Shown here in pieces: positions 2,586 to 40,461 of a DNA stretch of 64,000 bases. Position 1 is the stretch's first letter. The number at the start of each line of letters is the position of its first letter. The position numbers and the translations under genes were made by a program. The DNA is taken from positions 310,001 through 374,000 of the forward strand of contig NZ_JACHWH010000002.1 in the NCBI RefSeq assembly GCF_014191255.1, written 5' to 3'. A model generated the notes under the pieces. The model had not been told where the DNA came from. It saw only the letters and a list, made by a program, of their open reading frames with translations, and ran no database searches. The stretch comes from Amycolatopsis bartoniae (GTDB lineage Bacteria; Actinomycetota; Actinomycetes; Mycobacteriales; Pseudonocardiaceae).

Positions 2586-3793
2586 AGACGGGCGCGCAGC
2601 TCCCGTGCCCGATGGGGCCCGATCCGCGATTCGGCGCGGGTGAGCAGTTGCCGCAGTTCACGGGCCTGGTCCTCCCGCGGCCCGCGGTAGAGCCGCGCGC
2701 TCTCGTGCCGGAACCAGTTGTCCAGGTCCTCCCGGGCGTCGTCGGCCAACGGCTCGTCCGGAGCGGTCAGCAGCCGCAGGTCCACGACCAGCCGCGTCCA
2801 GTCGTTCCGGGCGCACAGCAACGCATGCGCCGCGCCGCGCTGGACCGGCGAGCGGTCACGCTCCAGCAGGCGCAGCAACGTGCCCTCGTCGACCAGGTAA
2901 GGATCCGTCCGCAACGCCCGGCGGACCCGCCGCACGACCCTCGGCGCGGGATCTTCCAGCAGCGGCACCAGTGCACGCAGCTCGCCGAGCCGCGCCAGCG
3001 CCCTGGCCGCTTCCGCCCGCACCTTCGGCCGTTCGTCGGCCAGCACGGGCAGTAGCAGCGGCACATCCGATGCCGTGCCCGTCTCACCCAGCCCGGCGAC
3101 GGCGCCGAGTTCCGGCAGCCGTTTCCGGTAGTGCGGCGCGGCGTCCTCGCCGTTGCGCCGCAGCACCCACTGCGCGTTGGCCCGGACGATCGAGCTGGGG
3201 TCGGCCAGCGCGGCCACGGCCGCGTCGCGGTCACCCTGGATGCCCAGCGCCCGCAGCGCGCCGGTACCGCTGGTGCGCAGGAGGTCCCGCACCTCGGGAT
3301 CGGTGCTGCCGACGAGCGCGTTCGCCGCGAGCAGCCGGATGCCCAGATCGGGGTCGCGCAGGGCCTTCTTGAGCTGCTCGTGGCTCGCGCGGCCGGACGC
3401 GTACGCCGCGCGGCGGACGACCCGGTCCTCGGACGCGAGCGCCAGGGGCAGCAGTTCCGGCGCGGCGATCCTCGCCTCCAGCTGCGCGGCGAGCCAACCG
3501 CCGTCCAGGCGGCGCCGCAGCAGGGCGGCCAGCGGGAACAGGTCGAGCGCGACCATCGGGTCCTGGAACAGGACCTTCAGGCACTCCCGCCGGGAGCGCT
3601 CCCGGACCTGCGGCACCCAGCCCGCCGCCCGCACCGCGAGCAGCGGCAGAAGGGACCGGTCGCCGCCGATCCGCGCCACCGCGGCTTCCCGCCGGTAGCC
3701 GTTCGGCGAGCACGCGTCGAAGAGGAGGCCCCTGTCCTGGAGCCCCTTCCGGCGCACGGACTCGTCGAAAGCGAGCCATTCCTCGGGAGTCAC
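2582..3793 (-). CDS. HEAT-repeat protein
   Basis: A 403-residue protein if it starts at GTG 3793 (VTPEEWLAFDESV). Most of the sequence is repeating helical pairs of ~30 residues with the pattern DPxxxVRxxAAxALxxLG, for example KVRAEAARALARLGEL and EVRDLLRTSG, typical of HEAT/PBS-lyase-type solenoids. It is probably a cytoplasmic scaffold, since no signal peptide or catalytic motif is seen. The frame stays open further upstream, but that would run over the start of the divergent gene at 3921. Confidence 0.75.
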   Translation of the reverse strand: MTPEEWLAFDESVRRKGLQDRGLLFDACSPNGYRREAAVARIGGDRSLLPLLAVRAAGWVPQVRERSRRECLKVLFQDPMVALDLFPLAALLRRRLDGGWLAAQLEARIAAPELLPLALASEDRVVRRAAYASGRASHEQLKKALRDPDLGIRLLAANALVGSTDPEVRDLLRTSGTGALRALGIQGDRDAAVAALADPSSIVRANAQWVLRRNGEDAAPHYRKRLPELGAVAGLGETGTASDVPLLLPVLADERPKVRAEAARALARLGELRALVPLLEDPAPRVVRRVRRALRTDPYLVDEGTLLRLLERDRSPVQRGAAHALLCARNDWTRLVVDLRLLTAPDEPLADDAREDLDNWFRHESARLYRGPREDQARELRQLLTRAESRIGPHRARELRARL

Positions 3794-3920
3794 GCCGGAA
3801 GTCTGCCTTGCGCGAACCCGGATCCTCCACCGAATTCCTCGCCTCACGGGCCACTTCCGTGCTATACCGGCTGACGCCGGTGCCACGGGGTAGTGGCGCC
3901 CTTGCCGCAGTGGGGTGCTC

Positions 3921-5978
3921 ATGGCGAGACGTACCTGGCGCTCGATGATCCTGCTGGCCGCGCTCGCCGCGCCCGCCGTCGTGCCGCTCACCGCGGCCGC
4001 CGACCCGGCCCCGCAGCCCGTGCTGACGAGCGTCTCCAACCCCCGGCCCGAGTTCGTCAGCGGCGGCCAGGTGCTCCTGTCGGTCAACACCGCCGCGCGG
4101 GTCACCGTGAACGGCCGCGACGTCACGCCCGAGTTCCACCGGCGCTCCGACGGCAGTTACCTCGGGCTGGTCACCGGGCTGCGCGACGGCCGCAACGACG
4201 TCGTCGCCACCACGCATGGTCGTTCGGCGAAGCTCCGCGTCACCAACCACCCCATCACCGGGCCCGTGTTCTCCGGCCCGCAGCAGCAGCCCTTCTACTG
4301 CGAGACCACGGCGTACGGCCTGCCTCCGGCGCAGCAACCGCTGTGCGGCGCGCCCACCCAGGTGACCTACCAGTACCGCACCACGGCGGGCGCGTTCGCG
4401 TCGCTCGCCGACCCGGCCGCGCGTCCGGCCGACCTGGCCACGACGACCGTGAACGGCCGCAGCGTGCCGTACGTCGTGCGGGTCGAGCGCGGCACGATCG
4501 ACCGCGCGGTGTACGAGATCGCCGCGCTGTACGACGGGCAGCCCTCGCCGTTCGCGCCCGACCGGTCCTGGAACGGCCGACTGGTCTATACCTTTGGTGG
4601 CGGCTGCAACGCTGGCTACCACCAGGGCGCCACGACCGGCGGAGTGCTCGAAGACCTCTTCCTGTCGCAGGGCTACGCGGTCGCGTCGTCGAGCCTCAAC
4701 GTGCTGGACAACAACTGCAGCCCGGTCATCTCCGCCGAGGCCGCGATGATGGTCAAGGAGCACTTCGCCGAGACCTACGGCCCGATCACCCACACGATCG
4801 GCTGGGGCGGGTCCGGTGGCGGGATCCAGCAGTACGACATCGCCGAGGCGTATCCGGGCATCGTGGACGGCATCATTCCGGGCATCTCGTTCCCCGACCC
4901 GCTGAGCACGGGCGGCCCGGTGAGCGACTGCCGGCTGCTGGAACAGTTCTTCGGCGGCGCGTCCTTCACCGCCGCGCAGAAGCAGGCCGTCTCCGGGTAC
5001 CACGACTACTCCACGTGCACGGCGTGGACGGAAACGTTCGCCAGCCGCGCGACCGCGACGGGCAGCTGCAACCCGGCCATCCCCGTCTCGGCGCGCTGGG
5101 ATCCGGTGACCAATCCACACGGGGTCATCTGCAATTCCAACGAGCAGCTGGTCAACCAGTTCGGCCGCGACCCGCGGACCGGGTTCGTGCGCAGCCCGCT
5201 GGACAACGTGGGCGTGCAGTACGGGCTCGCGGCACTGCGGTCCGGCGCGATCACACCCGCCCAGTTCGCGCAGCTGAACGCGTCGATCGGCGGGATCGAC
5301 TACACCGGGAAAGCGGTTTCTCAGCGGACCGAGGCCGATCTGAAAGCGCTTTCTGCCACCTATGCCGACGACCTGCTGAACTCGGCAAGCCAGGGGCTGC
5401 GCGAGACGCCGATCATCGACCAGCGCACGGACCTGGACTTCGCCGGCCGGGACGCGAACATCCATACGACGGAGTGGTCGTTCGCGCTGCGGCAGCGGCT
5501 GCTCGACGCGAACGGGACGGCGGCCAACCAGGTGATCATCGAGAACCAGGTGACCGACGCCGTCGCGGCGAGCCGGTACGAACTGTCCGCGATGGACCGC
5601 TGGCTGACCGCGATCGAGGCGGATCACTCGCACCGCGGCCAGGCGCAGAAGGTGCTCGCGAACCGCCCGGCGGACCTGGGCGACGGCTGCTACCTGTCGG
5701 GCCAGCGCGTACGAGCGGCGTTGGACAGCGGCCCGTGCGCGACGCAGTACCCGGTGGCGGGTAACCCGCGCACGGTGGCGGGCGAGAGCATCGCGATCGA
5801 CGTGCTGAAGTGCCGCCTGAAGCCGCTCGACTTCCGCGACTACCCGGTGACCTTCACCGACGCGGAGAAGCGGCAGCTGCGGTCGGCCTTCCCGACGGGC
5901 GTGTGCGACTACGGAAAGCCCGGAGTGGGCCAACGCGAGCCAGTGGGGACGTGGCTGGACTACTCGGTTCGGCGGTAG
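3921..5978 (+). CDS. Secreted DUF6351 protein (tannase/esterase-like alpha/beta hydrolase)
   Basis: A 685-residue exported protein with an N-terminal signal peptide (RRTWRSMILLAALAAPAVV, cleavage near TAAA-DP). An Ig-like strand region (about 30-100) precedes an alpha/beta-hydrolase core. The nucleophile elbow is GWGGSGGGIQQ, with Ser near residue 297. A candidate acid lies in DQRTDLDF and a candidate His in EADHSHRG, the order expected for a tannase/feruloyl-esterase-like fold. ATG 3921 and GTG 3915 are equally possible starts. The substrate is unknown. Confidence 0.8.
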   Translation: MARRTWRSMILLAALAAPAVVPLTAAADPAPQPVLTSVSNPRPEFVSGGQVLLSVNTAARVTVNGRDVTPEFHRRSDGSYLGLVTGLRDGRNDVVATTHGRSAKLRVTNHPITGPVFSGPQQQPFYCETTAYGLPPAQQPLCGAPTQVTYQYRTTAGAFASLADPAARPADLATTTVNGRSVPYVVRVERGTIDRAVYEIAALYDGQPSPFAPDRSWNGRLVYTFGGGCNAGYHQGATTGGVLEDLFLSQGYAVASSSLNVLDNNCSPVISAEAAMMVKEHFAETYGPITHTIGWGGSGGGIQQYDIAEAYPGIVDGIIPGISFPDPLSTGGPVSDCRLLEQFFGGASFTAAQKQAVSGYHDYSTCTAWTETFASRATATGSCNPAIPVSARWDPVTNPHGVICNSNEQLVNQFGRDPRTGFVRSPLDNVGVQYGLAALRSGAITPAQFAQLNASIGGIDYTGKAVSQRTEADLKALSATYADDLLNSASQGLRETPIIDQRTDLDFAGRDANIHTTEWSFALRQRLLDANGTAANQVIIENQVTDAVAASRYELSAMDRWLTAIEADHSHRGQAQKVLANRPADLGDGCYLSGQRVRAALDSGPCATQYPVAGNPRTVAGESIAIDVLKCRLKPLDFRDYPVTFTDAEKRQLRSAFPTGVCDYGKPGVGQREPVGTWLDYSVRR

Positions 5979-28854: not shown

Positions 28855-28897
28855 GCTCCCCCGGTTGGACTCGAACCAACAACCCTTCGGTTAACAG
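28855..28897 (-). other. attL: 43-bp copy of the tRNA-Asn 3' part
   Basis: These 43 bp are identical to 40388-40430, which covers the anticodon loop through the 3' end of tRNA-Asn. To the right the sequence diverges at once (TTATG instead of CCGAATG), so only a 3' fragment remains here. The identity block ends in the anticodon loop, a usual crossover site for tyrosine integrases. Confidence 0.9.
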
Positions 28898-28995
28898 TTA
28901 TGTGGTGTGTGCGGCCGACCTGCCGCTGAGCTGCTGTTTCGCTGGCTCGGGCGTCCGCTCTGGCTCGCCGTTGTTCACGGATGTCCGCACCGATT

Positions 28996-29019
28996 GATGT
29001 CAGATTTGGATGTCAGCCG
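28996..29019. promoter_or_regulatory. Candidate Int/Xis arm-type sites, left
   Basis: GATGTCAG occurs at 28996 and 29009, 13 bp apart. The second copy extends to GATGTCAGCCG, identical to 40330-40340 inside attR. In the excised circle these boxes would flank the att core on both sides, as arm-type integrase sites do. Confidence 0.55.
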
Positions 29020-29099
29020 CGCCCGGGCGACCGGCGGCACGCGGGTCCGGCTGGCCACCAACCAGGCCCCACCTTTCCCGCGATCCACAGCCGCCCAAG

Positions 29100-29232
29100 G
29101 CCGGGACGGGCGCCGTCAACCCTGTAACCGATCACGCCCACCCGGCGATCTACGTTCCGTGACTTGCCGGACGCAGAGTGGCCACCCGGGGCGTGACCGG
29201 CGCGCAGCGGGGTTGACGGCGCCCGTCCCGGC
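29100..29232. repeat. 23-bp perfect inverted repeat (possible origin structure)
   Basis: The arms 29100-29122 and 29210-29232 are perfectly complementary over 23 bp, separated by 87 nt that contain further partial complementarity (CACGCCCACCCGG against GGGGCGTGAC). Large non-coding stem-loops of this kind serve as single-strand origins or transfer loci in rolling-circle replicons. Its placement in an element with an HUH initiator makes such a role plausible (inference). Confidence 0.55.
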
Positions 29233-29482
29233 TTTGACCATCCGGCGATCGCGGGGAAGTTGGCCGTTCCGGCGCCCGCCTGCCGGTGTCACTTCCTACG
29301 TCTCTCATGCGCCCACCCCGCGAGCGGTGGCCGACGGCGTTCGGCGCGGTCGAGCCCAGCGGAGCGGCACGGCTCGACCGCGCGCCAGTTCGGCCCGCGC
29401 GCCCGCCCGGTAGGGCGGCTTGAAGACGTAAGGAAAGTTCTCACGGCACCAATGCGTGCTTCACAGGCAGGATAGGCATGAC

Positions 29483-30727
29483 ATGGATCAACAAACGTTC
29501 AACGAACATCCAATATGGAACACAACTCGACAGATGAAGGACCTAGTGGAGGAAGTGTCTCCCGGTGTTCCGTCGATACTGATGGAGACAGCACGGTACA
29601 CCACGTCCGCCATTCTTAGCCACGCAGATCCTGTCGACCCGATTCCTTATGCGATAGTAACACTGAACAACACGCGGGCCAATCTGGAAAATGCTGCAAC
29701 CGAGCTACGGAACTACAAATCTAATTCGAATGTACAACATCTTCATAATATGAACTCTCATCTAGATCAGGTTCTGAATCTATACGGTTCATGGCCAATT
29801 ATAACTGCGAAAGGCGGTGCAGCCGCACAGGCAAACCGAACCTTCAAGGAATATCGGAGGCTAGCAGAAAAGGCAATTGATGACCTGCGCTCGCAGCTTA
29901 AGGATATGGGCCACGAACTGAGCAACCAGGCCAACCTGGATCAGGCTCGACAGCATCAAGCCCAAACGCGACTGTCCGAACTAGAGGACGAGGTCGGTAA
30001 ACTAACAAACAAGATTTCTGCCGACGAAAGCAGGCTGGATTCAGCCTTAACTACGTCTAATGAAGCCTTCTCCGAGTCTCAACGCCGCCGCCAAGAGGAG
30101 TTCGAGCAATGGATAAAGGAGCAAGGCGACAATATGACAGAACTGGCAAAACCTAGCCTGGATGCCACTAGTGCAGCAAAGAATGAAGCAGAGGCCACGC
30201 TTCAGGATATCTTAAAGCTTCATAAAGACGTCGAGAAAGTTTCCGGAAAAGCTACTGCCGCAATACTCGCAAAGGACTATGGTTCCTATTCTACGAGAGA
30301 ATGGGTCTCAGGAATACTTTTCTACTTTCTGGGTTTTGGGATCCTCGGTTTCGTTGCCTGGCATTTAATTCAAACACTGGGGCAGATTTCGATAATTTCG
30401 ACTCCTTCTTGGCAATATGTATCGTTGAAGCTTGGAGTCACAGTGACCGCAGCAGTCGCCGCAGGAGTATCCTTCCGTGTCGCGTCAGCAGCGATATCTC
30501 GCGCCGGAACGAACAAGCGAGTGCAACTTGAGTTAGGCACAATCGGAACTTTCCTAGCGGACGTCAACGATGAAGAACGCGTCAAACAGGCAAAGATGGA
30601 ATTTGTTGATCGCATGTTTGGCCGCGCCTGGGAAACTCGCGTCGAGAACGCCAGCGCCAAAGAGAGCAGCGAACTGACGATCATTGAAAAGTTCATTGAA
30701 TTGACCGGAAAATTCACCGGCAAGTAA
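29483..30727 (+). CDS. Unrecognised coiled-coil membrane protein (AICE cargo)
   Basis: A 414-residue protein starting at ATG 29483. The N-terminal ~115 residues are helical and soluble. Residues ~120-250 form a long Gln/Glu/Lys/Ala-rich coiled coil. Two hydrophobic helices follow (about 275-297, GILFYFLGFGILGFVAW, and 312-336). The cytoplasmic-like tail has ELGTIGTFLADVNDEERVKQ. No enzymatic motif is seen. It is far AT-richer than the chromosome (28 G/C of 60 in 29641-29700), showing recent transfer. It is 83 bp from the next gene, in the same direction, probably one operon. Confidence 0.75.
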   Translation: MDQQTFNEHPIWNTTRQMKDLVEEVSPGVPSILMETARYTTSAILSHADPVDPIPYAIVTLNNTRANLENAATELRNYKSNSNVQHLHNMNSHLDQVLNLYGSWPIITAKGGAAAQANRTFKEYRRLAEKAIDDLRSQLKDMGHELSNQANLDQARQHQAQTRLSELEDEVGKLTNKISADESRLDSALTTSNEAFSESQRRRQEEFEQWIKEQGDNMTELAKPSLDATSAAKNEAEATLQDILKLHKDVEKVSGKATAAILAKDYGSYSTREWVSGILFYFLGFGILGFVAWHLIQTLGQISIISTPSWQYVSLKLGVTVTAAVAAGVSFRVASAAISRAGTNKRVQLELGTIGTFLADVNDEERVKQAKMEFVDRMFGRAWETRVENASAKESSELTIIEKFIELTGKFTGK

Positions 30728-30810
30728 GAAGGAAGTCTGGAGGCGGACATCCGTAACGAAGGTTCAGCGCTTGCGTTCGCGACCAGCGATTCAGCAGAGG
30801 AAAGTGTCTT

Positions 30811-31407
30811 ATGACAAGCCAAAACCTGATTGCATCGTGGGTGCCCGCCGGCTGCGCTCTAGCGTTTACAATTGCGTCCTTCTGGTGGATGAACTCAAGA
30901 ACAGGGCGACTTAAAACTTTCGCACCGCACTCATTCGCGATGTACATATCCAGGTCGGAGGTGCTACTTCGACTTCCCATCGTCATCTCGAATACCGGGC
31001 CGAAGCATCTGGTGATACAAGATCTAAAGCTTGCAATAACAGGAGGGAATGATTCGGTACTTTTCATGCGCTGGGAAAACTTGCGCACTCAAATAGATCC
31101 GCGGACCGATGACCTCTCCTCTCTACCCGCCACCTTCGTAATCAAGGGAAACTCGGCCGACACCTATTTCTTCGAATTCTCATCTAGTGGCGACGCTTTT
31201 CAGTTTGAAGCGATTGAACATCGCGTTGAGTTGCAAGTTAAATTGGGGCATCGAGATGGCTGGCGTAGCGCGGGCTTCTTCAGCCTATGGATGCAGCATG
31301 TGCATTCGCCTGAAATTTATGCAGCCTACCGAAATGAGTCAGCTTCGTGCGCGGAGGCAGAGTTACCACTAGCACATAACGCCCTGAAAAACATCTACGG
31401 CAATTGA
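30811..31407 (+). CDS. Unrecognised membrane-anchored protein (AICE cargo)
   Basis: A 198-residue protein from ATG 30811, with AGAGGAAAG upstream. One N-terminal hydrophobic helix (about residues 8-27, SWVPAGCALAFTIASFWW) anchors a domain rich in alternating strands (LLRLPIVISNTGPKHLVIQD, ADTYFFEFSSS, HRVELQVKLG). The domain resembles an immunoglobulin-like sandwich in pattern only. It shares the AT-rich composition of the preceding gene. No function is recognised. The pair sits in the cargo position of the AICE. Confidence 0.7.
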   Translation: MTSQNLIASWVPAGCALAFTIASFWWMNSRTGRLKTFAPHSFAMYISRSEVLLRLPIVISNTGPKHLVIQDLKLAITGGNDSVLFMRWENLRTQIDPRTDDLSSLPATFVIKGNSADTYFFEFSSSGDAFQFEAIEHRVELQVKLGHRDGWRSAGFFSLWMQHVHSPEIYAAYRNESASCAEAELPLAHNALKNIYGN

Positions 31408-31455
31408 TCGTGCGCATGTTGATTTTGCCGCACCCACGCCGTTTCCAATGATCGC

Positions 31456-31704
31456 TTAACCCATTTTCCATCTTCCCTCTAGACTCTCCATAAAGTTGAT
31501 CAAAGTCGTGTTGAGTACATCTACGACATGCCTCAATTCCACCACGTCAAGCCTGCGCTGCCCGGACTCATACTTGCTCACAAACGACTGAGGCACCCCG
31601 AGTGCCTCGGCCACCTGGACCTGGGTCAACCCTGCCTCGTGCCGGAGCTGGCGTAGTAGCTCGCATACCTGCTGGTACTCGGCCGAGTAGATCGACTTCT
31701 CCAC
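31456..31704 (-). CDS. XRE-family helix-turn-helix regulator
   Basis: An 82-residue protein from GTG 31704. The HTH reads LRHEAGLTQVQVAEALGVPQ, then SFVSKYESGQRRLDVVELR, a typical Cro/C1 fold filling most of the protein. The frame stays open upstream to 31833. The shorter start is preferred because a palindromic operator lies just before it. It is convergent with the cargo cassette and divergent from the GntR gene. Confidence 0.82.
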   Translation of the reverse strand: MEKSIYSAEYQQVCELLRQLRHEAGLTQVQVAEALGVPQSFVSKYESGQRRLDVVELRHVVDVLNTTLINFMESLEGRWKMG

Positions 31705-31731
31705 ATAGTCAGGCCACCGCAGTAGTTGCCC

Positions 31732-31750
31732 ATATCCCAAGATGGGATAT
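31732..31750. promoter_or_regulatory. Candidate XRE operator
   Basis: ATATCCCA-AGA-TGGGATAT is a perfect inverted repeat with 8-bp arms, 28 bp upstream of the XRE start. The AT-rich palindrome stands out in GC-rich DNA. Autoregulation by the XRE protein is the simplest reading. Confidence 0.65.
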
Positions 31751-31947
31751 TCTGGCGGTGCGTCCTGGTGCGGCGGGCCTGACTCCCGCGTGGTGCACGG
31801 CGCTTGACCGTCCCCTGCGGGGCGGGGCCGCACCGTGGCTCGTGTTCAGCTCATGGCCTGCTTGGCGATCCGGCGCCGATGGGGATCGAGCTGGACTGAC
31901 GGTTGGCGGCAGTTGAGGTCCGACTGCAACCAAGCGGAGGTAGTTCC

Positions 31948-32271
31948 ATGTCGATCCTGTTCGTGCCTGACCCGGCGGGTTACCTGTATGAGCAGATGGC
32001 CGCGCATATCGAGGCCCGGATCAGGGCGGGCGAGCTTCAGCCGAATCGGCCGTTGCCGGGGGAGCGGGAGCTTGCGGAGGAGTACAGGGTGTCACTGGGG
32101 ACCGCCCGGCATGCTGTCCGGCTGTTGAAGCAGCGGGGGTTCGTCCGGGTGATCAGGAGCAAGGGCACGTACGTCAGCCCGCTGGAGGCGTTCCAGATGC
32201 AGGCGGAACCGGTGGGTCAGGAAGAGCACTGGTCAGCGCCGGACCGCGCAGACGATTCGCAGCGGGTGTGA
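31948..32271 (+). CDS. GntR-family regulator (KorSA-like)
   Basis: A 107-residue protein, little more than a DNA-binding domain. YLYEQMAAHIEARIRAGEL, LPGERELAEEYRVSLGTARH and GFVRVIRSKGTYV are the GntR winged-helix landmarks. ATG 31948 follows GCGGAGGTAG. In pSAM2 the GntR-type KorSA represses replication and transfer genes; the same role is inferred here. No effector-binding domain is present. Confidence 0.88.
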   Translation: MSILFVPDPAGYLYEQMAAHIEARIRAGELQPNRPLPGERELAEEYRVSLGTARHAVRLLKQRGFVRVIRSKGTYVSPLEAFQMQAEPVGQEEHWSAPDRADDSQRV

Positions 32272-32289
32272 AGCCCATGCCCCCGACAC

Positions 32290-32335
32290 GCCAAAACCCC
32301 GGCCGCTTGAATCAGAGGCGTGCCGGGGTCTTCGT
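32290..32335 (+). terminator. Possible terminator after the GntR gene
   Basis: An ACCCCGGC arm and its complement GCCGGGGT lie about 20 nt apart between the GntR stop and the next start. The right arm is followed by a short CTTC run. This is a modest hairpin. Confidence 0.4.
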
Positions 32336-32350
32336 AGATGATGGTACACG

Positions 32351-33004
32351 ATGCCTGATCTGAGTCACCTCGAATCGTGGTTCTCCCACGATCGTCTGAC
32401 GCCGTACCGAACGGCGGTCCGTGACCAGCGCGACGCGGTTGCCCTCTACGAGTGGAACGCGGAGGTCTCGGCCGCCTTCTGGCGCACCCTCGGACACGTC
32501 GAGGTGCTGGTTCGCAACGCGCTGCACCGTGAGCTGGCCGCTTGGTCGCAGCAGCAGTACGGGACCGATCGTTGGTACGTGGCGGTAGATCCGCTCGTCA
32601 GCGACCGGACACGCCGCGACATCCGTGAGGCCATCCGCCGGGGCACGCGCACTGGCAGGGCAGAGACACCCGGTCGTGTGGTGGCGGAGCTGAACCTCGG
32701 GTTCTGGCGGTTCCTGCTCGCCCGGCGCTATGACGGCACGCTCTGGCGCTACTGCATGTACCGGGCCTTCCCCGGCAAGCGACGGGCGGACGTCGAGCGG
32801 GCGGTCTCCGAGCTGCATCTGCTGCGCAACCGCATCGGGCATCACGAGCCCATCCACAACCGGCCTCTGCGCGACCTGCTTGCGTTGTCGCTCGACGTGG
32901 CGGGCTGGATCGACCGCGATGCCCGGGACTGGATCGCGGCCGGCGACACCACGTCCAGCCTGCTCGCGCAGCGAAGTCAGCCGTGGTGGCCTCGTGTTCG
33001 GTAG
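32351..33004 (+). CDS. Abi family protein with HEPN-type motif
   Basis: A 217-residue protein of the Abi_2/AbiD-F kind. An all-helical domain begins with SWFSHDRLTPYRTAV, and the C-terminal part carries ELHLLRNRIGHHEPIHNRPL. The R-x4-H signature there is that of HEPN ribonucleases. Relatives act in abortive infection by cleaving RNA when triggered. It sits in the AICE upstream of an HD-domain gene. Whether it acts in phage defence or element maintenance is not shown by sequence. Confidence 0.8.
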   Translation: MPDLSHLESWFSHDRLTPYRTAVRDQRDAVALYEWNAEVSAAFWRTLGHVEVLVRNALHRELAAWSQQQYGTDRWYVAVDPLVSDRTRRDIREAIRRGTRTGRAETPGRVVAELNLGFWRFLLARRYDGTLWRYCMYRAFPGKRRADVERAVSELHLLRNRIGHHEPIHNRPLRDLLALSLDVAGWIDRDARDWIAAGDTTSSLLAQRSQPWWPRVR

Positions 33005-33013
33005 TCTGCGCCG

Positions 33014-33571
33014 GTGTCACTGGTGAGCTGGGCGCACGACATCGCCGCCCGCAAGCTCGCGGACTCGCTTCCGCGTCGCTGGGCCCACGTCCAAGGAGTC
33101 GCCCGGCAGGCCCGTCGACTCCAGTCCGTTCCGGGGCTGGACGCTGAGCTGGTCGAGGTCGCCGCGCTCTTGCACGATGTCGGCTATGCCCCTGACTTGG
33201 CGACCCTGAACTTCCATCCGATCGACGGGGCTCGGTACCTCGCCAGCATCGGCACCCCGTCTCGACTGGTGAACCTCGTCGCCCACCATTCCGCGGCTTA
33301 CCAGGATGCGGAGGTCGTCGGGCTGACCCATCTGCTGGCCGACTACGAGGACGAGCAGACACCGGAGCGTGATGCGTTGTGGTGGGCGGACATGACCACC
33401 GGCCCGGACGGCGAGACGCTGACCTTCATCGAGCGCATGACTGAAGTCAAGGAGCGCTACGGCCCCGAGCACGCGGTCAGCAAAGCAATCGACCTGTCGT
33501 GGCCGGAGCGGCTACGAGCCGTCGAGCGCACTGAAGCCCGATTGGCCGCTCACGTGAAGAACGCGGACTGA
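33014..33571 (+). CDS. HD-domain metal-dependent phosphohydrolase-like protein
   Basis: A 185-residue protein from GTG 33014, 9 bp after the Abi gene. It has the HD fold landmarks RRWAHVQGVARQARRL (first His), AALLHDVGYAP (HD pair) and LVAHHSAAYQDA. Such proteins usually hydrolyse nucleotides or phosphoesters. The close spacing suggests co-transcription with the HEPN gene. It overlaps the convergent NUDIX gene by 22 bp. Confidence 0.82.
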   Translation: MSLVSWAHDIAARKLADSLPRRWAHVQGVARQARRLQSVPGLDAELVEVAALLHDVGYAPDLATLNFHPIDGARYLASIGTPSRLVNLVAHHSAAYQDAEVVGLTHLLADYEDEQTPERDALWWADMTTGPDGETLTFIERMTEVKERYGPEHAVSKAIDLSWPERLRAVERTEARLAAHVKNAD

Positions 33572-34020
33572 CGGTTCTCGAAGCCGTGCTGGATGCGTAG
33601 CCGGATTGACGGGTGCACGTTGAGGTCCCCGATCGCATCGCGCGGCACCCAGTAGACTTCTTTGCTCTCGGAGCTGGTGCGGAGATCACCGCCGGTAGGC
33701 GTGGCGCGGAAGCAGATTGAGAACTCCTGCCGCACCTCGCCGTCGTCGTAGGCGATGACGTGCCGTGGGTTCGAGTACGCCCCGATCAGCTCGGTCACCT
33801 CGACCTCGATCCCGGTTTCCTCCCGCACCTCCCGCACGGCGGCCTCGCTCAGTGTCTCGCCCAGTTCGAGGTTCCCGCCGGGTAGCGCGTACAGGTCGTT
33901 GTCCGTGCGGCGGATCATCAGCAGTTCGCCGCGCTCGTTGAGGGTGAAGGCGCTGACGGCGACGCCGATGCTGTTCGCGGCTGGGGCGTTGGGGTCGTTG
34001 AAGTAGTCAGTGCGCGTCAA
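33550..34020 (-). CDS. NUDIX hydrolase (Pif-like)
   Basis: A 156-residue protein with an intact Nudix box: GNLELGETLSEAAVREVREE followed by TGIEV. TTG 34020 is taken as the start because GGAAGAGG precedes it; the start lies within the last 14 bp of the DUF5919 gene. In pSAM2 the Nudix protein Pif gives transfer immunity, blocking redundant conjugation between donors. A Pif-like role is likely here, given the same neighbours. Confidence 0.85.
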   Translation of the reverse strand: MTRTDYFNDPNAPAANSIGVAVSAFTLNERGELLMIRRTDNDLYALPGGNLELGETLSEAAVREVREETGIEVEVTELIGAYSNPRHVIAYDDGEVRQEFSICFRATPTGGDLRTSSESKEVYWVPRDAIGDLNVHPSIRLRIQHGFENRQSAFFT

Positions 34021-34774
34021 GGTTGGCCTCTTCCAGGGTTGCGGGCTTGGAGGTGCGCCAGATCTCTTCGAAGCTTTGGGCATAGGTGTCGAACAGGCTG
34101 CCCGCCGACAGGCGCCGGAGGTGCATCGCGGGGGCGTGCGCGCCCTGGATGCCGTACACGTGCGTGTTGACGATCATCTCGTCGTCGAAGCGGAAGATCG
34201 AGTTGTACAGGGTCGTGCGGTGAAATCGGATTTCCGGCTCGGCCAGCTCGAACAGCGGCCGGTAGAACGCCAGCGCGTTGCGGATACGTCCGGCGAGTGT
34301 GTGCTTGCCGAGTCGTTCTTCCTCGCTGCGGCGCGTGACTTCCCGGCTGGCGGGGTCACCGAAGGCGAGTCTGATGCTGCATCCTTTTCGGGACTTCTGT
34401 ACCAGTGATCTGACGAAGTTCGGACGCTCCACGAGGAACAGTGCCGCGTGCATCACGAGGTCGATCCGCTCCGTCGCGTCGTTGATGACCCGATCCCACA
34501 GCTCGGTCGGTACCGAATTGCGGTGCGGGAAGAACGTCACCAGCTCCGACTGGCTGACCGTCGTGGCTTCCTCGCCGCTGAGCGCGTCCGGCCACAGGTA
34601 GGTCTCGGTGGTGTGCAGCCGTGCCGCGATCCGGCTGCGGTATTTCCGGTACGGCACACGGCCTTTCGTGATCCAACGCTCGACCGTCTTCGGGTCCACG
34701 GCAAGCTCTTCGGCCAGGACGTCGGTCGACACTCCGGCGGCTGTCAGAGCGTCGCGCAGCCGTTCGTTCCGCAT
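34007..34774 (-). CDS. Helix-turn-helix DUF5919 protein
   Basis: A 255-residue protein. The N-terminus is an XRE-like HTH (LRDALTAAGVSTDVLAEELA, DPKTVERWITKGR). The rest matches the DUF5919 type seen in AICEs, with DRVINDATERIDLVMHAALF and AHAPAMHLRRL, whose role is unknown. It forms an overlapping pair with the NUDIX gene and is divergent from the transfer-replication operon, so it may regulate that operon. Confidence 0.8.
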   Translation of the reverse strand: MRNERLRDALTAAGVSTDVLAEELAVDPKTVERWITKGRVPYRKYRSRIAARLHTTETYLWPDALSGEEATTVSQSELVTFFPHRNSVPTELWDRVINDATERIDLVMHAALFLVERPNFVRSLVQKSRKGCSIRLAFGDPASREVTRRSEEERLGKHTLAGRIRNALAFYRPLFELAEPEIRFHRTTLYNSIFRFDDEMIVNTHVYGIQGAHAPAMHLRRLSAGSLFDTYAQSFEEIWRTSKPATLEEANLDAH

Positions 34775-34785
34775 AGGGACGACTT

Positions 34786-34803
34786 TAGGACGTCTAGGAC
34801 GTC
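34786..34803. promoter_or_regulatory. TAGGACGTC direct repeat
   Basis: Two adjacent copies of TAGGACGTC (34786-34794, 34795-34803) end in the palindrome AGGACGTCCT. They lie 11 bp upstream of the DUF5919 start, in the divergent control region of the element. The DUF5919 protein or the GntR protein are the candidate binders. Confidence 0.55.
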
Positions 34804-34863
34804 CTGAGAAGTCCTTCGTTGTGGTGAAGTGGTCCCCGCGTCCAGAGGCATCTTGGTTCGGCG

Positions 34864-34893
34864 CACCGCGATCTACCGCGATACACCGCGCGG
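34864..34893. promoter_or_regulatory. ACCGCG repeats at 10-bp period
   Basis: ACCGCG occurs at 34865, 34875 and 34885, the first two extended to ACCGCGAT. The array lies 40-70 bp upstream of the first gene of the transfer-replication operon. Phased repeats like this suit a repressor or activator of that operon. Confidence 0.5.
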
Positions 34894-34931
34894 GCGCCTG
34901 AACCGAGTAACTGCCTTGGAGGCCAGTAGAG

Positions 34932-35267
34932 ATGCGATTGATGATCGACACTTCGCAGGTGACGTTCACGGTGGGCCGTGAGGCTCAGCCGAAGACCGAC
35001 CAGAACGGCGTGCAGCGAGTCGAGCGCAGCACCAACATTCCCATGTGGTCCGTGCAACTGGTTGCCATGGACAACGGCGGGGCTGAGGTGATCACCGTGA
35101 CCGTGGCGGCTCCGCAGCCGCCGAAGGTCGCGATTGGTTCCCTTGTCACCCCGGTGGAGTTGCAGGCGATTCCGTGGGCACAGAACGGCCGCAACGGTGT
35201 GGCTTTCCGCGCTACCGACATCAAGGCTGCCCCCGGCTCGAAGTCCGGTTCTTCGGCGGGAGCATGA
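34932..35267 (+). CDS. AICE-conserved small protein
   Basis: A 111-residue soluble protein from ATG 34932, first gene of the rightward operon. It begins with a strand (MIDTSQVTFTVGREAQPK) and has a strand-rich middle (VITVTVAAPQPPKVAIGS) with an OB-like look, then WAQNGRNGVAFRATDI. A single-strand-binding-like or regulatory role is possible, but I do not recognise the family with certainty. It overlaps the next gene by 4 bp (ATGA). Confidence 0.65.
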   Translation: MRLMIDTSQVTFTVGREAQPKTDQNGVQRVERSTNIPMWSVQLVAMDNGGAEVITVTVAAPQPPKVAIGSLVTPVELQAIPWAQNGRNGVAFRATDIKAAPGSKSGSSAGA

Positions 35268-35548
35268 CGATGAACAACCCTGAACGTCCTGATACTCAAC
35301 GACTTTGGGAGACGTATCGACGGTTCGCCGTCGTTCGCTTGGCAATCAACATGCGTTGCAAGGACAAGGCAGAAGCCTGGCTGTGCTCGAAATCCCTGCC
35401 ACAGTCCGATCGTGATCGGCTGTGGAATGAGTACGAAGCGCTGTGCCGCGAGTACGACATCATCGACGCCAAGGTTTGCGTCGCACGGGCGCGCTACATC
35501 GTGGCCCGACACGGTCTGAACGAGTCAGACATCTTCGAAGCTCAGTAA
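35264..35548 (+). CDS. AICE small helical protein
   Basis: A 94-residue, largely helical protein (LWETYRRFAVVRLAINMRCK, AKVCVARARYIVARHGLNES). The start ATG overlaps the preceding stop. No domain is recognised. It is part of the transfer-replication operon, and position alone suggests an accessory role. Confidence 0.6.
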   Translation: MTMNNPERPDTQRLWETYRRFAVVRLAINMRCKDKAEAWLCSKSLPQSDRDRLWNEYEALCREYDIIDAKVCVARARYIVARHGLNESDIFEAQ

Positions 35549-35644
35549 CGCATCCGAGGAAGCACGGGGACCGGTCTGGTTCTTGGCGGTTCCTGCCCGG
35601 ACCCCGTGCCTCTCGGCACAACTCGCCCTGGAGGTGCGAGAGTC

Positions 35645-36370
35645 GTGGCCAAGTCTATTCGCCGTCCGCGTGGGGCGCGACGGCTCGACGTGATGGAAGT
35701 GTGGCACACCCCGAAGCACTCGTGGGTCGTGCTCGTCGTCGGCGTCCTCGTGCGCTGGCGTGCCGAGATCCTGATTGTCTCGCTCGTTGTGACTGCCAGG
35801 ATCTGGCTCGGACACGAGGTCGGCCCAGTCGTCGCGTGGCTGATCTTCGGCGGCGTGACCGTCGTGATCGTGGTGATTCCGCCTTCGCGGCGGTTCGTCT
35901 ACGGGCGGTTCTGGTGCATCGTTGACCGGCACCGGTTGCGAACCTGCCTGCGACAGGCACGGGCGCGCACGATGAACCTGGACGGCGCCTTGCCGTTCAT
36001 GCTGTGGGCCCGGCCGACCAAGACCGGCGAACGCGTCTGGCTGTGGACGCGTGCCGGTTCCTCGTCCGGGGACATCGAAGAGGCGCTGGAGTACATCGCT
36101 CCGGCCTGCTTTGCCCGTGACGCCCGCCTGCACAAGGTGCGCAAGCTCTCGACCCTGTTCGCGGTCGATGTCATCCGACGCGACCCGCTCGACAAGTCGA
36201 CTCCGCTGGACTCGCCGCTGGGCAAGCTCGGCTCGCTGTTGGGTGCTCGTGTCCAGGAGAACGCGGAGCCGATTACCGGCGCCACGGTTACGCCCTTGCC
36301 GGTCAAGGAGAAGAAGACCGAACGTCCGGCCGTGGTCAACGGCGACGACTTGTCCGACTACATCGACTGA
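35645..36370 (+). CDS. AICE membrane protein upstream of the translocase
   Basis: A 241-residue protein from GTG 35645, preceded by GGAGGTG. A basic N-terminus is followed by two hydrophobic helices (about residues 25-45 and 50-75, VAWLIFGGVTVVIVVIPP). A cytoplasmic domain of ~160 residues follows. It lies 10 bp upstream of the FtsK/TraSA-like gene and probably forms the membrane anchor that this translocase lacks (inference). Confidence 0.65.
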   Translation: MAKSIRRPRGARRLDVMEVWHTPKHSWVVLVVGVLVRWRAEILIVSLVVTARIWLGHEVGPVVAWLIFGGVTVVIVVIPPSRRFVYGRFWCIVDRHRLRTCLRQARARTMNLDGALPFMLWARPTKTGERVWLWTRAGSSSGDIEEALEYIAPACFARDARLHKVRKLSTLFAVDVIRRDPLDKSTPLDSPLGKLGSLLGARVQENAEPITGATVTPLPVKEKKTERPAVVNGDDLSDYID

Positions 36371-36380
36371 GGAATGCGTG

Positions 36381-37193
36381 ATGTCGAAGAAGGACACGAT
36401 TCCCGTCGCTGGCCTGTCCATCTACGATCCCGTGCACCTCGGCATCTACGAGGACGGGCACGGCGTCGATATCGAACTCATCTGGCGGAACATCTTGCTC
36501 GCCGGGGAACCGGGCGCGGGCAAGTCCGTCGGGCTGAACAACATCGTCGCGCACGGGGCACTGTCCCCGAACCTGTCGCTGTGGCTGTTCGACGGCAAGC
36601 AAGTCGAACTCGGCCTGTGGCGCGACGTGGCCGACCTGTTCGTGGGCCCGGATATCGAAGCCGCGTTGCTGGCGCTGGAGCGGTTGCAGGCGGAGATGGA
36701 CCGCCGGTACCGGGAACTCGACCGTGTGCGGCGCCGCAAGATCGACCGCCGCGACCCGATCGACGTGATCATGCTCGTCATCGACGAGCTTGCCCTGTTC
36801 TCCGCCACGATGGGCAGCAAGGACCAGCAGGACACCTTCGTCCGGCTGCTGCGTGACCTCGTAGCACGCGGCCGCGCTGCCGGAGTCATCGTCGTAGCGG
36901 CGACACAGCGGCCGTCCGCCGACATCATCCCGACCTCACTGCGGGACCTGTTCGGCTACCGCCTGGCCTACCGCTGCACCACCGACTCGTCGTCGGACAT
37001 CATCCTCGGCCGTGGCTGGGCCAGTCAGGGCTACGACGCCTCCACCATCGCACCGGAGGAACGCGGCGTCGCGCTGCTCCTGGCCGAAGGCGGCACGCCT
37101 CGGCGCATGAAGACCGCGTATCTCACTGATGCGCAGATCTATTCGCTTGTGGATTACGCGCAACGGTTACGCAGCAAGAAAACCGTCGCCTGA
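36381..37193 (+). CDS. FtsK/SpoIIIE-type conjugal DNA translocase (TraSA-like)
   Basis: A 270-residue motor domain with Walker A GEPGAGKS, Walker B VIMLVIDELALF and the FtsK motif VVAATQRPSAD. TraSA/TraB proteins of actinomycetes are hexameric pumps that move double-stranded DNA between hyphae. It is at the short end of the family and has no membrane segment of its own; the preceding gene may supply it. Confidence 0.9.
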   Translation: MSKKDTIPVAGLSIYDPVHLGIYEDGHGVDIELIWRNILLAGEPGAGKSVGLNNIVAHGALSPNLSLWLFDGKQVELGLWRDVADLFVGPDIEAALLALERLQAEMDRRYRELDRVRRRKIDRRDPIDVIMLVIDELALFSATMGSKDQQDTFVRLLRDLVARGRAAGVIVVAATQRPSADIIPTSLRDLFGYRLAYRCTTDSSSDIILGRGWASQGYDASTIAPEERGVALLLAEGGTPRRMKTAYLTDAQIYSLVDYAQRLRSKKTVA

Positions 37194-37236
37194 TCCACCA
37201 TTACCGTATTCGTCTCACAGGAGCGGACTGTCCACA

Positions 37237-37491
37237 GTGCTCACCCCCACCATGCCCATCTCGACCAGCCCGGATCACGTCTGGGTGTTCGTCTCAGCCC
37301 CCGGCGGCGCGGTCGACGTGGTTCGGCTCGCACACGCGCCGGGCTCTCCGCGGTTCGTCGGGCTGCCCATCGAAGCCTTCGACCCGTCGGCGTTGCTGCC
37401 CACCTACAACCCGACGGGCGAACTCGTGAACGGCTTCCGCTGGGCCACCACCGCCGACATCGACACCTACGCCTACTTGTTCACCGCCTGA
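37237..37491 (+). CDS. AICE small protein
   Basis: An 84-residue acidic protein from GTG 37237 (CAGGAG upstream; ATG 37252 is an alternative). It shows SPDHVWVFVSAPGGAVDVVR and FRWATTADIDTYAYLF, with no recognised domain. It ends 2 bp before the replication initiator and may be a spread or replication accessory. Confidence 0.6.
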   Translation: MLTPTMPISTSPDHVWVFVSAPGGAVDVVRLAHAPGSPRFVGLPIEAFDPSALLPTYNPTGELVNGFRWATTADIDTYAYLFTA

Positions 37492-37493
37492 CA

Positions 37494-38990
37494 ATGACCG
37501 TCTCGACCATGACTCCCAGCCCCACCACCAAAACCGTGGTGGGGCTGGGAGCCGTTGCCGAGCTTGTCTCCCGCGCCTCCCAGCCGGACTACCGGTGGTG
37601 GCTAGCGCACGTCATGCCCGCCGCTGCCTGCTCCCGGCCCGTGCGGCTACGGCTGGAAGCGACCTGGGACGACGGCACCACCGAGCAACCGACCGACGAC
37701 ATGCCGGACGGGCTGCTGTACGTCGCCTGCAAGAACCGCCGTGCCTCCGTCTGCCCGGCCTGCGCGGAGACCTACCGAGCGGACACGTACCAGCTCGTCA
37801 AGGCCGGGCTCGTCGGCGGCAAGGGCGTACCCGACACCGTGACCGAGCACCCGTGCTTCTTCGTCACCCTCACCGCACCCGCGTTCGGCACCGTGCACGC
37901 CCGCGTGGTCGGCTCGAACGGGGTCCGCCCCTGCCGCCCTCGTCGATACGCGCCACTGTGCCCGCACGGCCGCTCGACCGAATGCCGGGAGCGGCACACC
38001 GAGGACGACCCGCGTGTCGGGGAACCGTTGTGCCGGGACTGCTACGACTACGACGCGCAAGCCGTGTGGAACTTCCACGTCGGGGAGCTGTGGCGGCGCA
38101 CCACGATCACGCTGAACCGGCTTCTCGCTTCCGCTGCCAAGGCCCGGGGCGTTCGGGTGCGGCTCTCGTACGCAAAGGTGGCCGAATACCAGCGGCGCGG
38201 GACCGTGCACTTCCACGCCCTGATCCGGCTCGATGGCGTCGACCCGGAAGACCGGGATAGCATCGTGGCGCCGGATGTTTCGATCACGCCGGAGCTGCTG
38301 AGCAGCCACATCGCCACCGCTGCGACCCTCACGCGCTTCACCACGGCGTCCCACCCCCGGCATCGCACCGGCTGGACCCTGACCTGGGGCAAGCAGACCG
38401 ACATCCGCCGGGTCCACCTCAATGCCGGTGATCACGACGACCACGGCGTACTCACCTCGACTGCCGTCGCGGCGTATCTCGCCAAGTACGCCACCAAAGC
38501 CACCGAAGAAGCCGGGCTCGTGTCCCGGCGGCTTACCGACCGGACCGCGAGCATCTACGCCGACCAGGACACGCACCAGGCCCGACAGCTCGTCGCCTGC
38601 TGGTACCTCGGCAAGCGCCCCTTCTACTACACCTCCGAAGCCCAGCGGAAAGCCTGGGATGAGGGCTGGGGCCGCCTCCAGAAATGGGCACACATGCTCG
38701 GCTTCGGCGGCCACTTCTCCACCAAAAGCCGCCGCTACTCCACGACGCTCGGCGCACTCCGAGCGGTCCGCCGGGCCTTCCAACGAGGCGAGCACCCCGA
38801 GGACACCCCGCCGGCCGACCTCGACCAGCTCGGGGATCAAGCCGAAGTGACCCTGGATTGGATCTTCGACGGCGTCGGCTGGTTGACCATCGGTGACGCC
38901 GCCCTGGCGAACACGGCTGCAGCCAAGGCGCGAGAACGGCGGCGCGTCGCACGAGAAGAAATCGAAGCAACCGACCGAGGAAGGATGTGA
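37494..38990 (+). CDS. repSA: RepSA-like HUH replication initiator
   Basis: A 498-residue protein of the pSAM2 RepSA type. An N-terminal Cys-rich zinc region (VACKNRRASVCPACAETYRA) precedes the rolling-circle core. The HUH motif is in GTVHFHALIRL and the catalytic Tyr in AAYLAKYATKAT. A second Cys/His cluster (CPHGR, CRDC) lies between them. It would nick the double-strand origin to start replication before transfer. Its codons 7-20 contain a perfect 16-bp hairpin. Confidence 0.92.
   Translation: MTVSTMTPSPTTKTVVGLGAVAELVSRASQPDYRWWLAHVMPAAACSRPVRLRLEATWDDGTTEQPTDDMPDGLLYVACKNRRASVCPACAETYRADTYQLVKAGLVGGKGVPDTVTEHPCFFVTLTAPAFGTVHARVVGSNGVRPCRPRRYAPLCPHGRSTECRERHTEDDPRVGEPLCRDCYDYDAQAVWNFHVGELWRRTTITLNRLLASAAKARGVRVRLSYAKVAEYQRRGTVHFHALIRLDGVDPEDRDSIVAPDVSITPELLSSHIATAATLTRFTTASHPRHRTGWTLTWGKQTDIRRVHLNAGDHDDHGVLTSTAVAAYLAKYATKATEEAGLVSRRLTDRTASIYADQDTHQARQLVACWYLGKRPFYYTSEAQRKAWDEGWGRLQKWAHMLGFGGHFSTKSRRYSTTLGALRAVRRAFQRGEHPEDTPPADLDQLGDQAEVTLDWIFDGVGWLTIGDAALANTAAAKARERRRVAREEIEATDRGRM
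37513..37551. other. 16-bp perfect hairpin within the start of repSA
   Basis: Arms 37513-37528 and 37536-37551 are perfectly complementary, with loop CAAAACC. The structure starts only 19 bp after the repSA ATG, inside the coding region. It could be the rolling-circle nick site or an mRNA hairpin limiting RepSA synthesis. Confidence 0.65.
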
Positions 38991-38994
38991 ACCA

Positions 38995-39174
38995 GTGGAA
39001 CCCATTTTGCTCCGTGTCGACGAAGCCGCCCGCCTGCTCGGGATCGGCCGGACACGCGTCTACGACTTGATTCGGCTGGACTTGCTCCAGTCGGTCAAGG
39101 TCTTCGGCGCACGACGGATTCCGCGCACGGCGATCGACGCCTACGTGGAGTCCCTTATAGACAAGGCTGCGTGA
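38995..39174 (+). CDS. xis: Excisionase (MerR-like HTH)
   Basis: A 59-residue protein from GTG 38995. LLRVDEAARLLGIGRTRVYD, then LIRLDLLQSVKVFGARRIPR, is the winged-helix layout of AICE excisionases. Its stop overlaps the int start, the usual xis-int arrangement. It would direct Int towards excision. Confidence 0.88.
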   Translation: MEPILLRVDEAARLLGIGRTRVYDLIRLDLLQSVKVFGARRIPRTAIDAYVESLIDKAA

Positions 39175-40331
39175 TGACCAAGCGTGCGGCCAACGGCATG
39201 GGAACGATCGTGCAGCGCAAGGACGGCCGCTATCACGCGGCTGTCTACGTGCTCGCGGTCGACGGCACACGCGAGCGGAAGTACGTCTACGGCAAGACCT
39301 GGGAGGAGGCGAACGAGAAGCGAATCGAGCTGCTGGACAACAACCGCAAGGGGCTGCCGTCCATCTCGTCGTCAATGAAGCTGAGCGATTACCTCGACTA
39401 CTGGTTGGACAATGTGGTCCAGGTCGAGCGCGGGCCATCTACCTACTCGGGTTACGAGGTGGTGATCCGGCGGTTCATCAAGCCCAAGCTCGGCAGCAAG
39501 AAGCTCAACGCGCTGACACCGGCGGACGTGCGGAAGTTCTTGGCGCAGCTACGCAAGGCAAAGACAGTGCACGGTAAGGATCTCTCGGCGCGCTACGTCC
39601 AGAACATCTTCGAGGTCCTGCGCGGTGCGTTGAACAACGCCGTCCGGGAGGAGCTGATCGGCCGGAACGTCACCACGCTGGTGAAAGCCCCTTCGCGTGA
39701 TCACTTCGAGGTACGCCCGATGTCGGAGACCGACGCTCGGCGCTTCCTGCGGTACGTCGCGACGCACTGGCTGTATGCGCTCTGGCTCGTGCTGATCACG
39801 ACCGGTCTGCGAAAGGGTGAAGTGCTGGGACTGGCGTGGTCCGACATCAACCTGATGACGGGCGAGGTCCGCGTCAGGCGCACGGTCCAGCGGGTGCGCG
39901 GGAGGCTCATCTTCGGCCAGCCGAAGACGAAGCGCTCACGCCGGGAGGTCTACCTGCCGGAGGTCTGCTTGGTCGCGCTGCGTGCGCACCGGACATCGAC
40001 GGCAGAGCGGATGTCCGTCCACCAGAACCCGGCACCGGGGCAGCCGGACGACCTGGTGTTCATCACCCGAACGGGGAGGGTGATTGAGCCTCGGAATGTC
40101 AACACGATGCTCGACCGCGTGTTGAAGAACGCCAAGATCGATCGCAACCGGGTACATGACCTGCGCCACACCTGCGCGACGCTGCTGCTCCTGGACGGAG
40201 CGACCATCCGTGAGGTCATGGAGCTGCTCGGCCACGCGTCCATCTCGACGACGGCCGACATTTACGGGCACGTGCTCGACGAGGCGAAGCGACGACTGGC
40301 CCAGCAGATGAACCGGCTGGCTGAGAACTGA
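39171..40331 (+). CDS. int: Tyrosine integrase of the AICE
   Basis: A 386-residue integrase. It has an N-terminal arm-binding region (MGTIVQRKDGRYHAAVYV), a SAM-like core-binding domain (about 65-165), and the catalytic residues Arg (TTGLRKGEVLGL), HxxR (HDLRHTCATLL), His (LLGHAS) and Tyr (DIYGH). GTG 39171 or ATG 39174 could start it, both overlapping the xis stop. It ends 57 bp before the tRNA 3' end. Confidence 0.94.
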   Translation: MMTKRAANGMGTIVQRKDGRYHAAVYVLAVDGTRERKYVYGKTWEEANEKRIELLDNNRKGLPSISSSMKLSDYLDYWLDNVVQVERGPSTYSGYEVVIRRFIKPKLGSKKLNALTPADVRKFLAQLRKAKTVHGKDLSARYVQNIFEVLRGALNNAVREELIGRNVTTLVKAPSRDHFEVRPMSETDARRFLRYVATHWLYALWLVLITTGLRKGEVLGLAWSDINLMTGEVRVRRTVQRVRGRLIFGQPKTKRSRREVYLPEVCLVALRAHRTSTAERMSVHQNPAPGQPDDLVFITRTGRVIEPRNVNTMLDRVLKNAKIDRNRVHDLRHTCATLLLLDGATIREVMELLGHASISTTADIYGHVLDEAKRRLAQQMNRLAEN

Positions 40332-40340
40332 TGTCAGCCG
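40330..40340. promoter_or_regulatory. Candidate Int/Xis arm-type site, right
   Basis: GATGTCAGCCG is identical to 29009-29019 near attL and lies between the int stop and attR. Confidence 0.5.
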
Positions 40341-40347
40341 TAGATGT

Positions 40348-40382
40348 AAACAAGGCCCTGGATGATCTCCAGGGCCTTGTTT
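40348..40382. terminator. Strong bidirectional terminator between int and tRNA-Asn
   Basis: A perfect 15-bp stem (40348-40362 with 40368-40382, 5-nt loop) is AAAC-rich at its left base and TTT-rich at its right base. It can stop the int operon on the plus strand and the tRNA transcript on the minus strand. Confidence 0.85.
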
Positions 40383-40387
40383 CCGCT

Positions 40388-40461
<74 letters not shown>

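Follow-up and report, generated by a model that had tools for sequence, protein, structure and literature searches.

The window, by which we mean the whole 64,000-nucleotide stretch of Amycolatopsis bartoniae DNA that was analyzed, contains an 11.6-kb AICE (28855 to 40430) at a tRNA-Asn site, with exact 43-bp att repeats at both ends. attL (28855 to 28897, forward strand) repeats the 3' end of the tRNA-Asn, and its exact twin attR (40388 to 40430, reverse strand) lies inside the tRNA-Asn. The element has the integrase, the tRNA site with direct repeats, the FtsK-type Tra, and the Rep expected of an AICE; the three proteins were identified by eye from the sequence and its conserved context. All three genes lie on the forward strand: an FtsK/Tra-like transfer gene of the backbone (36369 to 37193), a Rep gene of the rolling-circle type (37494 to 38990), and a tyrosine integrase gene (39171 to 40331), the first and last named from their open reading frames (ORFs). 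Rep carries HxH and YxxK motifs, which are the hallmark of rolling-circle initiators.

An HD hydrolase gene (33014 to 33571, forward strand) and a Nudix hydrolase gene (33550 to 34083, reverse strand) also belong to the AICE backbone. A short HTH-like gene, so labeled by eye and conserved in several related elements, lies at the right edge of the cargo slot (31456 to 31833, reverse strand). An HD-Nudix-XRE set recurs in several related elements and corresponds to the mdp-nud-xre cluster described in the available text of PMC3218068. Because of this recurrence, the HD gene is part of the backbone and gives no hint of defense, contrary to the original prediction, which had pointed to HEPN/Abi and HD neighbors. 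The HEPN/Abi gene at 32351 to 33004 (forward strand) resembles PD-T4-5 (E = 1.5e-10). The stretch that carries it is common to the window and to one sister element (G003) and has no nucleotide match in two others (G006 and G007), and for this reason it is perhaps a second small variable site. Between attL and the slot lies a noncoding, imperfect 54-nt inverted repeat (29069 to 29122 and 29210 to 29263; 81%), which is partly conserved in related elements. The boxes GGGGTTGA and GGCTTTGA are invariant in eight aligned copies of this region (29069 to 29263) from seven elements; it may be an origin, a transfer site, or a leader.

The slot itself holds two genes on the forward strand, which we call P1 (29483 to 30727, 414 amino acids [aa]) and P2 (30811 to 31407, 198 aa). 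The ORFs, their lengths, their strand, and the 83-bp gap between them are all as originally described, and the positions of the att repeats (28855 to 28897 and 40388 to 40430) place both genes between attL and the regulators, as had been proposed. The gap has no terminator-like site on the strand of the genes. The reported AT richness (28 G/C of 60, or 0.467, at 29641 to 29700) was reproduced and extends over both genes, with a G+C content of 49.2% for P1 and 50.6% for P2, versus 68.5, 67.0, 65.7, 68.9, and 63.8% for the HEPN, HD, FtsK, Rep, and integrase genes, respectively. Third-position values (GC3) are 0.51 and 0.55 versus 0.82 to 0.87 in the other element genes, and a flanking chromosomal stretch is 71.7% G+C. 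P1 and P2 are not chance ORFs, since P2 has relatives on plasmids and the 414 codons of P1 run without interruption at 49% G+C. As noted originally, we obtained no catalytic motif for either protein, and likewise no confident fold. The profile searches returned no strong match to a housekeeping family, an outcome that would have spoken against a cassette of this kind. An Rfam match to MIR8622 was rejected as spurious (36 bits versus a gathering score of 197).

P1 is a membrane protein with a helical N-terminal part, a long coiled coil, two transmembrane (TM) helices, and a helical tail of about 80 residues. The predicted coiled coil and TM pair are consistent with hydrophobic segments from residues 273 and 313 and with a long helix (residues 154 to 265) in a low-confidence single-sequence model, which is all-helical (pLDDT 48). 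Its charge pattern places both termini, by prediction, inside the cell. At E ≤ 1e-3, searches of 19 genus, 249 family, and 396 phylum genomes found only the copy in the window itself, and searches of plasmids, phages, and viral contigs found none; nor did a pattern-based search of genome contigs, whose reach is close relatives. Remote relatives of P1 may be missed because, with the whole protein as the query, coiled coils fill up the initial candidate list. The TM-plus-tail piece alone (161 aa) gave a single, chance-level match in plasmids, to an MFS transporter (E = 3). In phylum genomes it matched at E ≤ 1 in 80 of 296, its own included, the best value beyond its own locus being 0.0036. When nine of these matches were realigned, seven yielded an ORF, none with the architecture of P1, and two gave no alignment; the realignments of L023 and L024 landed elsewhere. 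P1 has no match that reaches the cutoff in Pfam or NCBIfam, and neither its TM-plus-tail part nor its N-terminal part, each scanned alone, has a PADLOC match. Identification of P1 as JetC, ZorA, or HEC-07 (PADLOC) was rejected, as those matches recur with the coiled coil alone.

The single hydrophobic segment of P2 is N-terminal, and the low-confidence model of the protein shows ten strands, in line with its original description as N-terminally anchored and strand rich. The model (mean pLDDT 53; residues 1 to 43 below 50, with the TM part not built as a helix) suggests a beta sandwich. Foldseek searches with it returned no match at E ≤ 1e-3, the best hits being generic beta sandwiches (1.5e-3). 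A phmmer search of PDB sequences returned TraM alone, over the TM segment (E = 0.032), and P2 matched no known defense family. Homologues occur at 13 loci, in seven plasmid records (six from Streptomyces, some of them near-identical, and one from Arthrobacter), four genomes (G159, G432, G455, and, with a weak and partial match, G439), and two viral contigs. Six of the plasmid relatives are 37 to 41% identical to P2 over 81 to 99% of its length, and the seventh is 24% identical. In a 10-row alignment, most rows share the TM segment followed by SFWW-N-R-G-L and an N-T-G-like loop. In eight rows of the 10, the N side of the TM segment has zero or one K/R and the stretch after it has two to seven (for L017 and L004 the placement of the TM window made no sense), a pattern by which the beta domain is predicted to lie inside the cell.

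The original prediction treated P1 and P2 as a single two-gene system. By the test proposed for it at the outset, co-occurrence of the homologues, this claim fails and is not supported: none of the 13 P2 loci has a P1 homologue in the surrounding DNA, although P1 has no homologues anywhere searched with which the pairing could be properly tested. The 13 loci represent fewer independent cases, as near-identical Streptomyces copies are among them. A less likely alternative to the main reading is that each gene is a separate cargo and their adjacency is fortuitous. P2 by itself would then be the mobile unit, perhaps an exclusion protein of the prophage type or a protein of envelope stress, and P1 would have nothing to do with it. 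The missing P1 neighbor is in its favor, as is the solitary appearance of P2 at the five loci whose neighbors were read (L002, L003, L006, L015, and L016). However, the two genes share their composition and strand, their short gap lacks a terminator-like site, and the lack of known P1 homologues deprives the co-occurrence argument of a proper test. The two viral-contig genes were placed by eye: that of L015 lies antisense amid phage structural genes, and that of L016 follows tail-type genes.

Two of the genomic P2-like genes have neighbors of another kind. In G455, the gene lies 44 bp before a coiled-coil CHAT gene (Pfam CHAT, 1.2e-6 on the C-terminal piece and unreported for the whole protein; PADLOC PDC-S66, 9.9e-8). 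In G439, the weak P2-like gene lies 59 bp after a gene for a 759-aa ATPase-like protein (AAA_16, 7.2e-4, below the cutoff), which has no match in plasmids. P2-CHAT as a conserved unit was considered and rejected. None of seven inspected plasmid CHAT loci, drawn from the 53 records matched by the G455 CHAT protein, has a P2-like gene within 3 kb; one profile match, in L084, had an E value of 0.4.

Comparison with sister elements shows that P1 and P2 occupy an exchangeable slot. A search of 19 genus genomes, that of A. bartoniae included, found three other elements with an integrase 81 to 83% identical to that of the window, at tRNA-Asn and with att repeats. The left backbone is alignable up to window positions 29443 to 29446, and the right backbone matches again from 31511, 31526, or 31534, according to which sister is compared. 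All three have conserved flanks and unrelated contents, and none holds this cassette: their slots measure 3.6 to 4.1 kb versus 2.1 kb in the window, are AT-rich like the window slot (about 50 to 60% G+C), and have no nucleotide match to it. In G003, the backbone on either side of the slot matches at 83 to 86% and the slot itself has no match, which supports the earlier proposal that the cargo was acquired separately from the element. The G003 slot encodes a 1,105-aa TPR-CHAT protein (Pfam CHAT, 1.2e-48; PADLOC BovA weakly, 4.7e-5), that of G006 a 1,280-aa YobI-type ATPase matching Tmn (3.4e-43), and that of G007 a three-gene Lamassu set (LmuA, 5.3e-50; LmuB, 1.9e-121; LmuC, 1.6e-6). G003 also carries a second integrase, 38% identical.

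At the left border of the slot lies a short conserved leader (29403 to 29444, forward strand), in which hairpin arms at 29403 to 29408 and 29413 to 29418 are followed by CTTGA at 29419 to 29423 and by conserved bases up to 29444. We assembled 21 copies, eight from seven elements found through their integrases (the window included) and 13 from further pattern matches; conservation among the latter is partly by construction, and the eight integrase-found copies are free of this effect. Every copy has a hairpin of 6 to 9 pairs with a loop of 3 to 5, then CTTGA directly after it and some 20 more conserved bases (21 of 21 with G-T pairs allowed; one such pair occurs in L050 copy a). The stems vary in sequence and pairing is kept. 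Column information is 1.0 to 2.0 bits within the leader and 0 to 0.6 bit from the first base beyond it. With up to two mismatches, the pattern gave 19 copies in 14 of 115 family genomes, and the reversed pattern, as a control, had no match in any of the 115; viral contigs had no exact match. On both strands of the sequences that hold these copies there are 456 CTTGA sites, and 26 of these follow such a hairpin, the leaders accounting for 21 of the 26. As a background, hairpins of this kind occur at 1.8% of positions and at 3.2% of positions ending in GG.

A possible identity of the leader comes from the replication protein of the element. We take CTTG/A to be the nick sequence of the pC194-type superfamily. 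A Rep relative was seen with 16 of the 21 leader copies in the fetched DNA. The Rep of pSAM2 nicks a double-stranded origin that is assigned to the pC194 family in the available text of PMC3218068. Together with the motifs of Rep, these points indicate that the leader may be a nick origin of the rolling-circle type. As a putative nick origin, it would have the cargo at its 3' edge, which suggests exchange linked to replication. Other candidate roles are those of a single-strand origin, a site for transfer, or the leader of a transcript. Leaders with other stem sequences also occur in two small circular plasmids of Actinomadura graeca (L091, 1972 to 2017; L092, 4330 to 4354). Neither plasmid has a Rep homologue by tblastn, and the nick-origin reading is weakened because the one Rep-like candidate gene in each has neither similarity to Rep nor its motifs.

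The genes behind the leader elsewhere are what connects the slot to defense. Conflict-family genes stand behind eight of the 20 other leader copies (a count over leader copies alone), two slots are empty (L081 and L083, where the HD gene follows the leader), and 10 hold unassigned or other genes. Strong PADLOC matches occur at four of the 20: Tmn (L037), Lamassu (L038), DRT UG22 with a HEPN gene (L072; 3.3e-130 and 2.6e-41), and type I restriction-modification (RM) (L073; 1.4e-255). The RM genes of L082 are 92 to 93% identical to those of L073 and are assigned through this identity. Three more copies have other conflict-family genes, namely, CHAT (L036), ApeA_NTD1 (L050 copy a; 9.8e-36, separated from the leader by other genes and a piece of an integrase gene), and Abi_C (L050 copy b; 9.8e-6). 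Three further integrase-related loci, the degenerate element L045 (a DUF6119 gene, with no leader match in the genome) and L047 and L048, whose contigs end short of the slot, were excluded from the count. None of these loci yielded a P1 or P2 homologue. The first backbone gene to the right of the slot is HTH, HD, or FtsK-like, which may mean that the right junction varies or that backbone genes have been lost. L050 (4531 to 8645) has two tandem leader copies accompanied by fragments of HD and integrase genes, which suggests that remnants of elements have accumulated there.

No recognized conflict gene was found at L046, L049, L071, L074, L075, L076, L077, L078, L079, or L080. PADLOC scans of one or two main proteins each from seven of these loci (L046, L049, L071, L075, L077, L078, and L079) gave no convincing match, the best being PDC-S73 at 0.003 (L078). 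The slot is not for defense alone, since the cargo of L071 (an ABC transporter, a 608-aa protein, and a small PqqD-like protein) resembles, by eye, a peptide-product or metabolite cluster. In L078 (reverse complement, 690 to 4526), the cargo is a 1,278-aa protein with a nuclease-like N terminus by eye, a candidate conflict gene. The sole cargo of L077 (578 to 1291) is a 238-aa protein with a TM segment and a beta-looking domain (by eye), similar in layout to P2; a relationship to P2 is not supported, as no homology is detectable. The 10 slots with other or unassigned genes could be taken to mean that P1 and P2 are neutral, decaying, or otherwise beneficial cargo unrelated to conflict, the more so as AICE cargo is often pseudogenized according to the accessible part of PMC9513070. 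We regard this as quite improbable, as both frames are full length, P2 is conserved at the protein level, and conflict genes are the commonest recognized class in the slot.

P1 and P2 lie in a cargo slot, are foreign in composition, and are replaced in sister elements, and several of the corresponding slots hold known defense systems. On balance, we favor the reading that they are exchangeable slot cargo whose likeliest role is in conflict, as a cassette that acts at the membrane against phages or other elements, as their position in the slot suggests. The phage-defense role proposed at the outset thus draws its support from position (Lamassu, Tmn, DRT, type I RM, and CHAT in related slots) and finds none in a defense-family match, P2 having no such match and P1 having coiled-coil-centered matches plus a weak one to LeoBC. 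The predicted topologies of the two proteins, the P2 homologues on viral contigs, and the CHAT and ATPase-like neighbors of P2-like genes also count in favor of the conflict reading, and the 10 leader copies with no recognized conflict gene and the two empty slots count against it. Because relatives carry known or likely anti-virus systems in the same slot, P1-P2 is probably an undescribed defense cassette.

By analogy with the membrane effectors of abortive systems, P1 would be the effector, its two helices embedded in the membrane and its coiled coil and tail facing the cytosol. On infection, P1 may assemble through the coiled coil and then damage the membrane or arrest growth. P2, with a single anchoring helix and a beta domain predicted to be cytosolic, could be a sensor or regulator, or else a second, independent protection gene. 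A membrane location would also suit a role in excluding related AICEs at entry or in immunity to their conjugation, exclusion being expected of conjugative elements. We consider this very improbable, since several related slots hold phage-defense systems and the AICE immunity factor Pif, as described in the available text of PMC3218068, is a Nudix protein, and the backbone already has a Nudix gene.

The conflict-cassette reading can be extended to an undescribed membrane abortive-infection system, P1-P2, carried by an AICE family that loads defense cassettes directly 3' of a hairpin-CTTGA, nick-origin-like site by replication-linked, one-ended exchange. This extension draws on a left border that is constant to within one base, on the differing genes next to the right border, and on the occurrence of empty slots. 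We think the full combination unlikely. If it were true, a short searchable motif would mark a storage site for exchangeable defense genes in a family of actinomycete mobile elements, and the cassettes behind the leader, P1-P2 among them, would be candidates for new defense systems. The precise left border makes the mechanism of cassette exchange directly testable. We found no report of a hairpin-CTTGA cargo slot in the literature on AICEs, pSAM2 nicking, and actinomycete ICE defense (mostly nonsubscription papers).

AICE cargo is described as diverse, with phage resistance genes included, in the available part of PMC9513070; as here, the same backbone modules carry different cargo, with phage resistance among the categories, whereas here the hairpin-CTTGA leader maps the left border and several of the occupants belong to named systems. 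diDNase genes are associated with AICE-type islands and with PADLOC systems in the accessible text of PMC11706625. For P1-P2 itself, the searched libraries gave no convincing match. LeoBC resembles P1 through a weak match over the coiled coil and TM region (1.5e-5, residues 92 to 343). The value is 0.065 with the coiled coil alone, and the match collapses when the parts are scanned apart; it is the one lead for P1 that the coiled coil alone does not explain and may reflect a remote relation. ZorA, which is membrane bound, and JetC of Wadjet have a long coiled coil like that of P1, and their matches fall in and around this coil; the TM-plus-tail part matches neither, so no Zorya or Wadjet family domain was found beyond the coil. 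SLATT-type effectors have two TM helices with a cytosolic helical tail, as P1 is predicted to have, and the Pfam SLATT profile did not match the P1 TM-plus-tail part in a search whose program filters drop most matches above E = 0.1. With the G455 CHAT protein and the G439 AAA_16-like ATPase, a single-TM, P2-like protein adjoins a conflict-type gene, each in a single instance. P1-P2 differs from Lamassu, Tmn, DRT, and type I RM in that it matches no ATPase, nuclease, reverse transcriptase, or methyltransferase and fills a smaller slot. It shares with these systems the same genomic slot, which is similarly AT-rich in all three of the same-genus elements.
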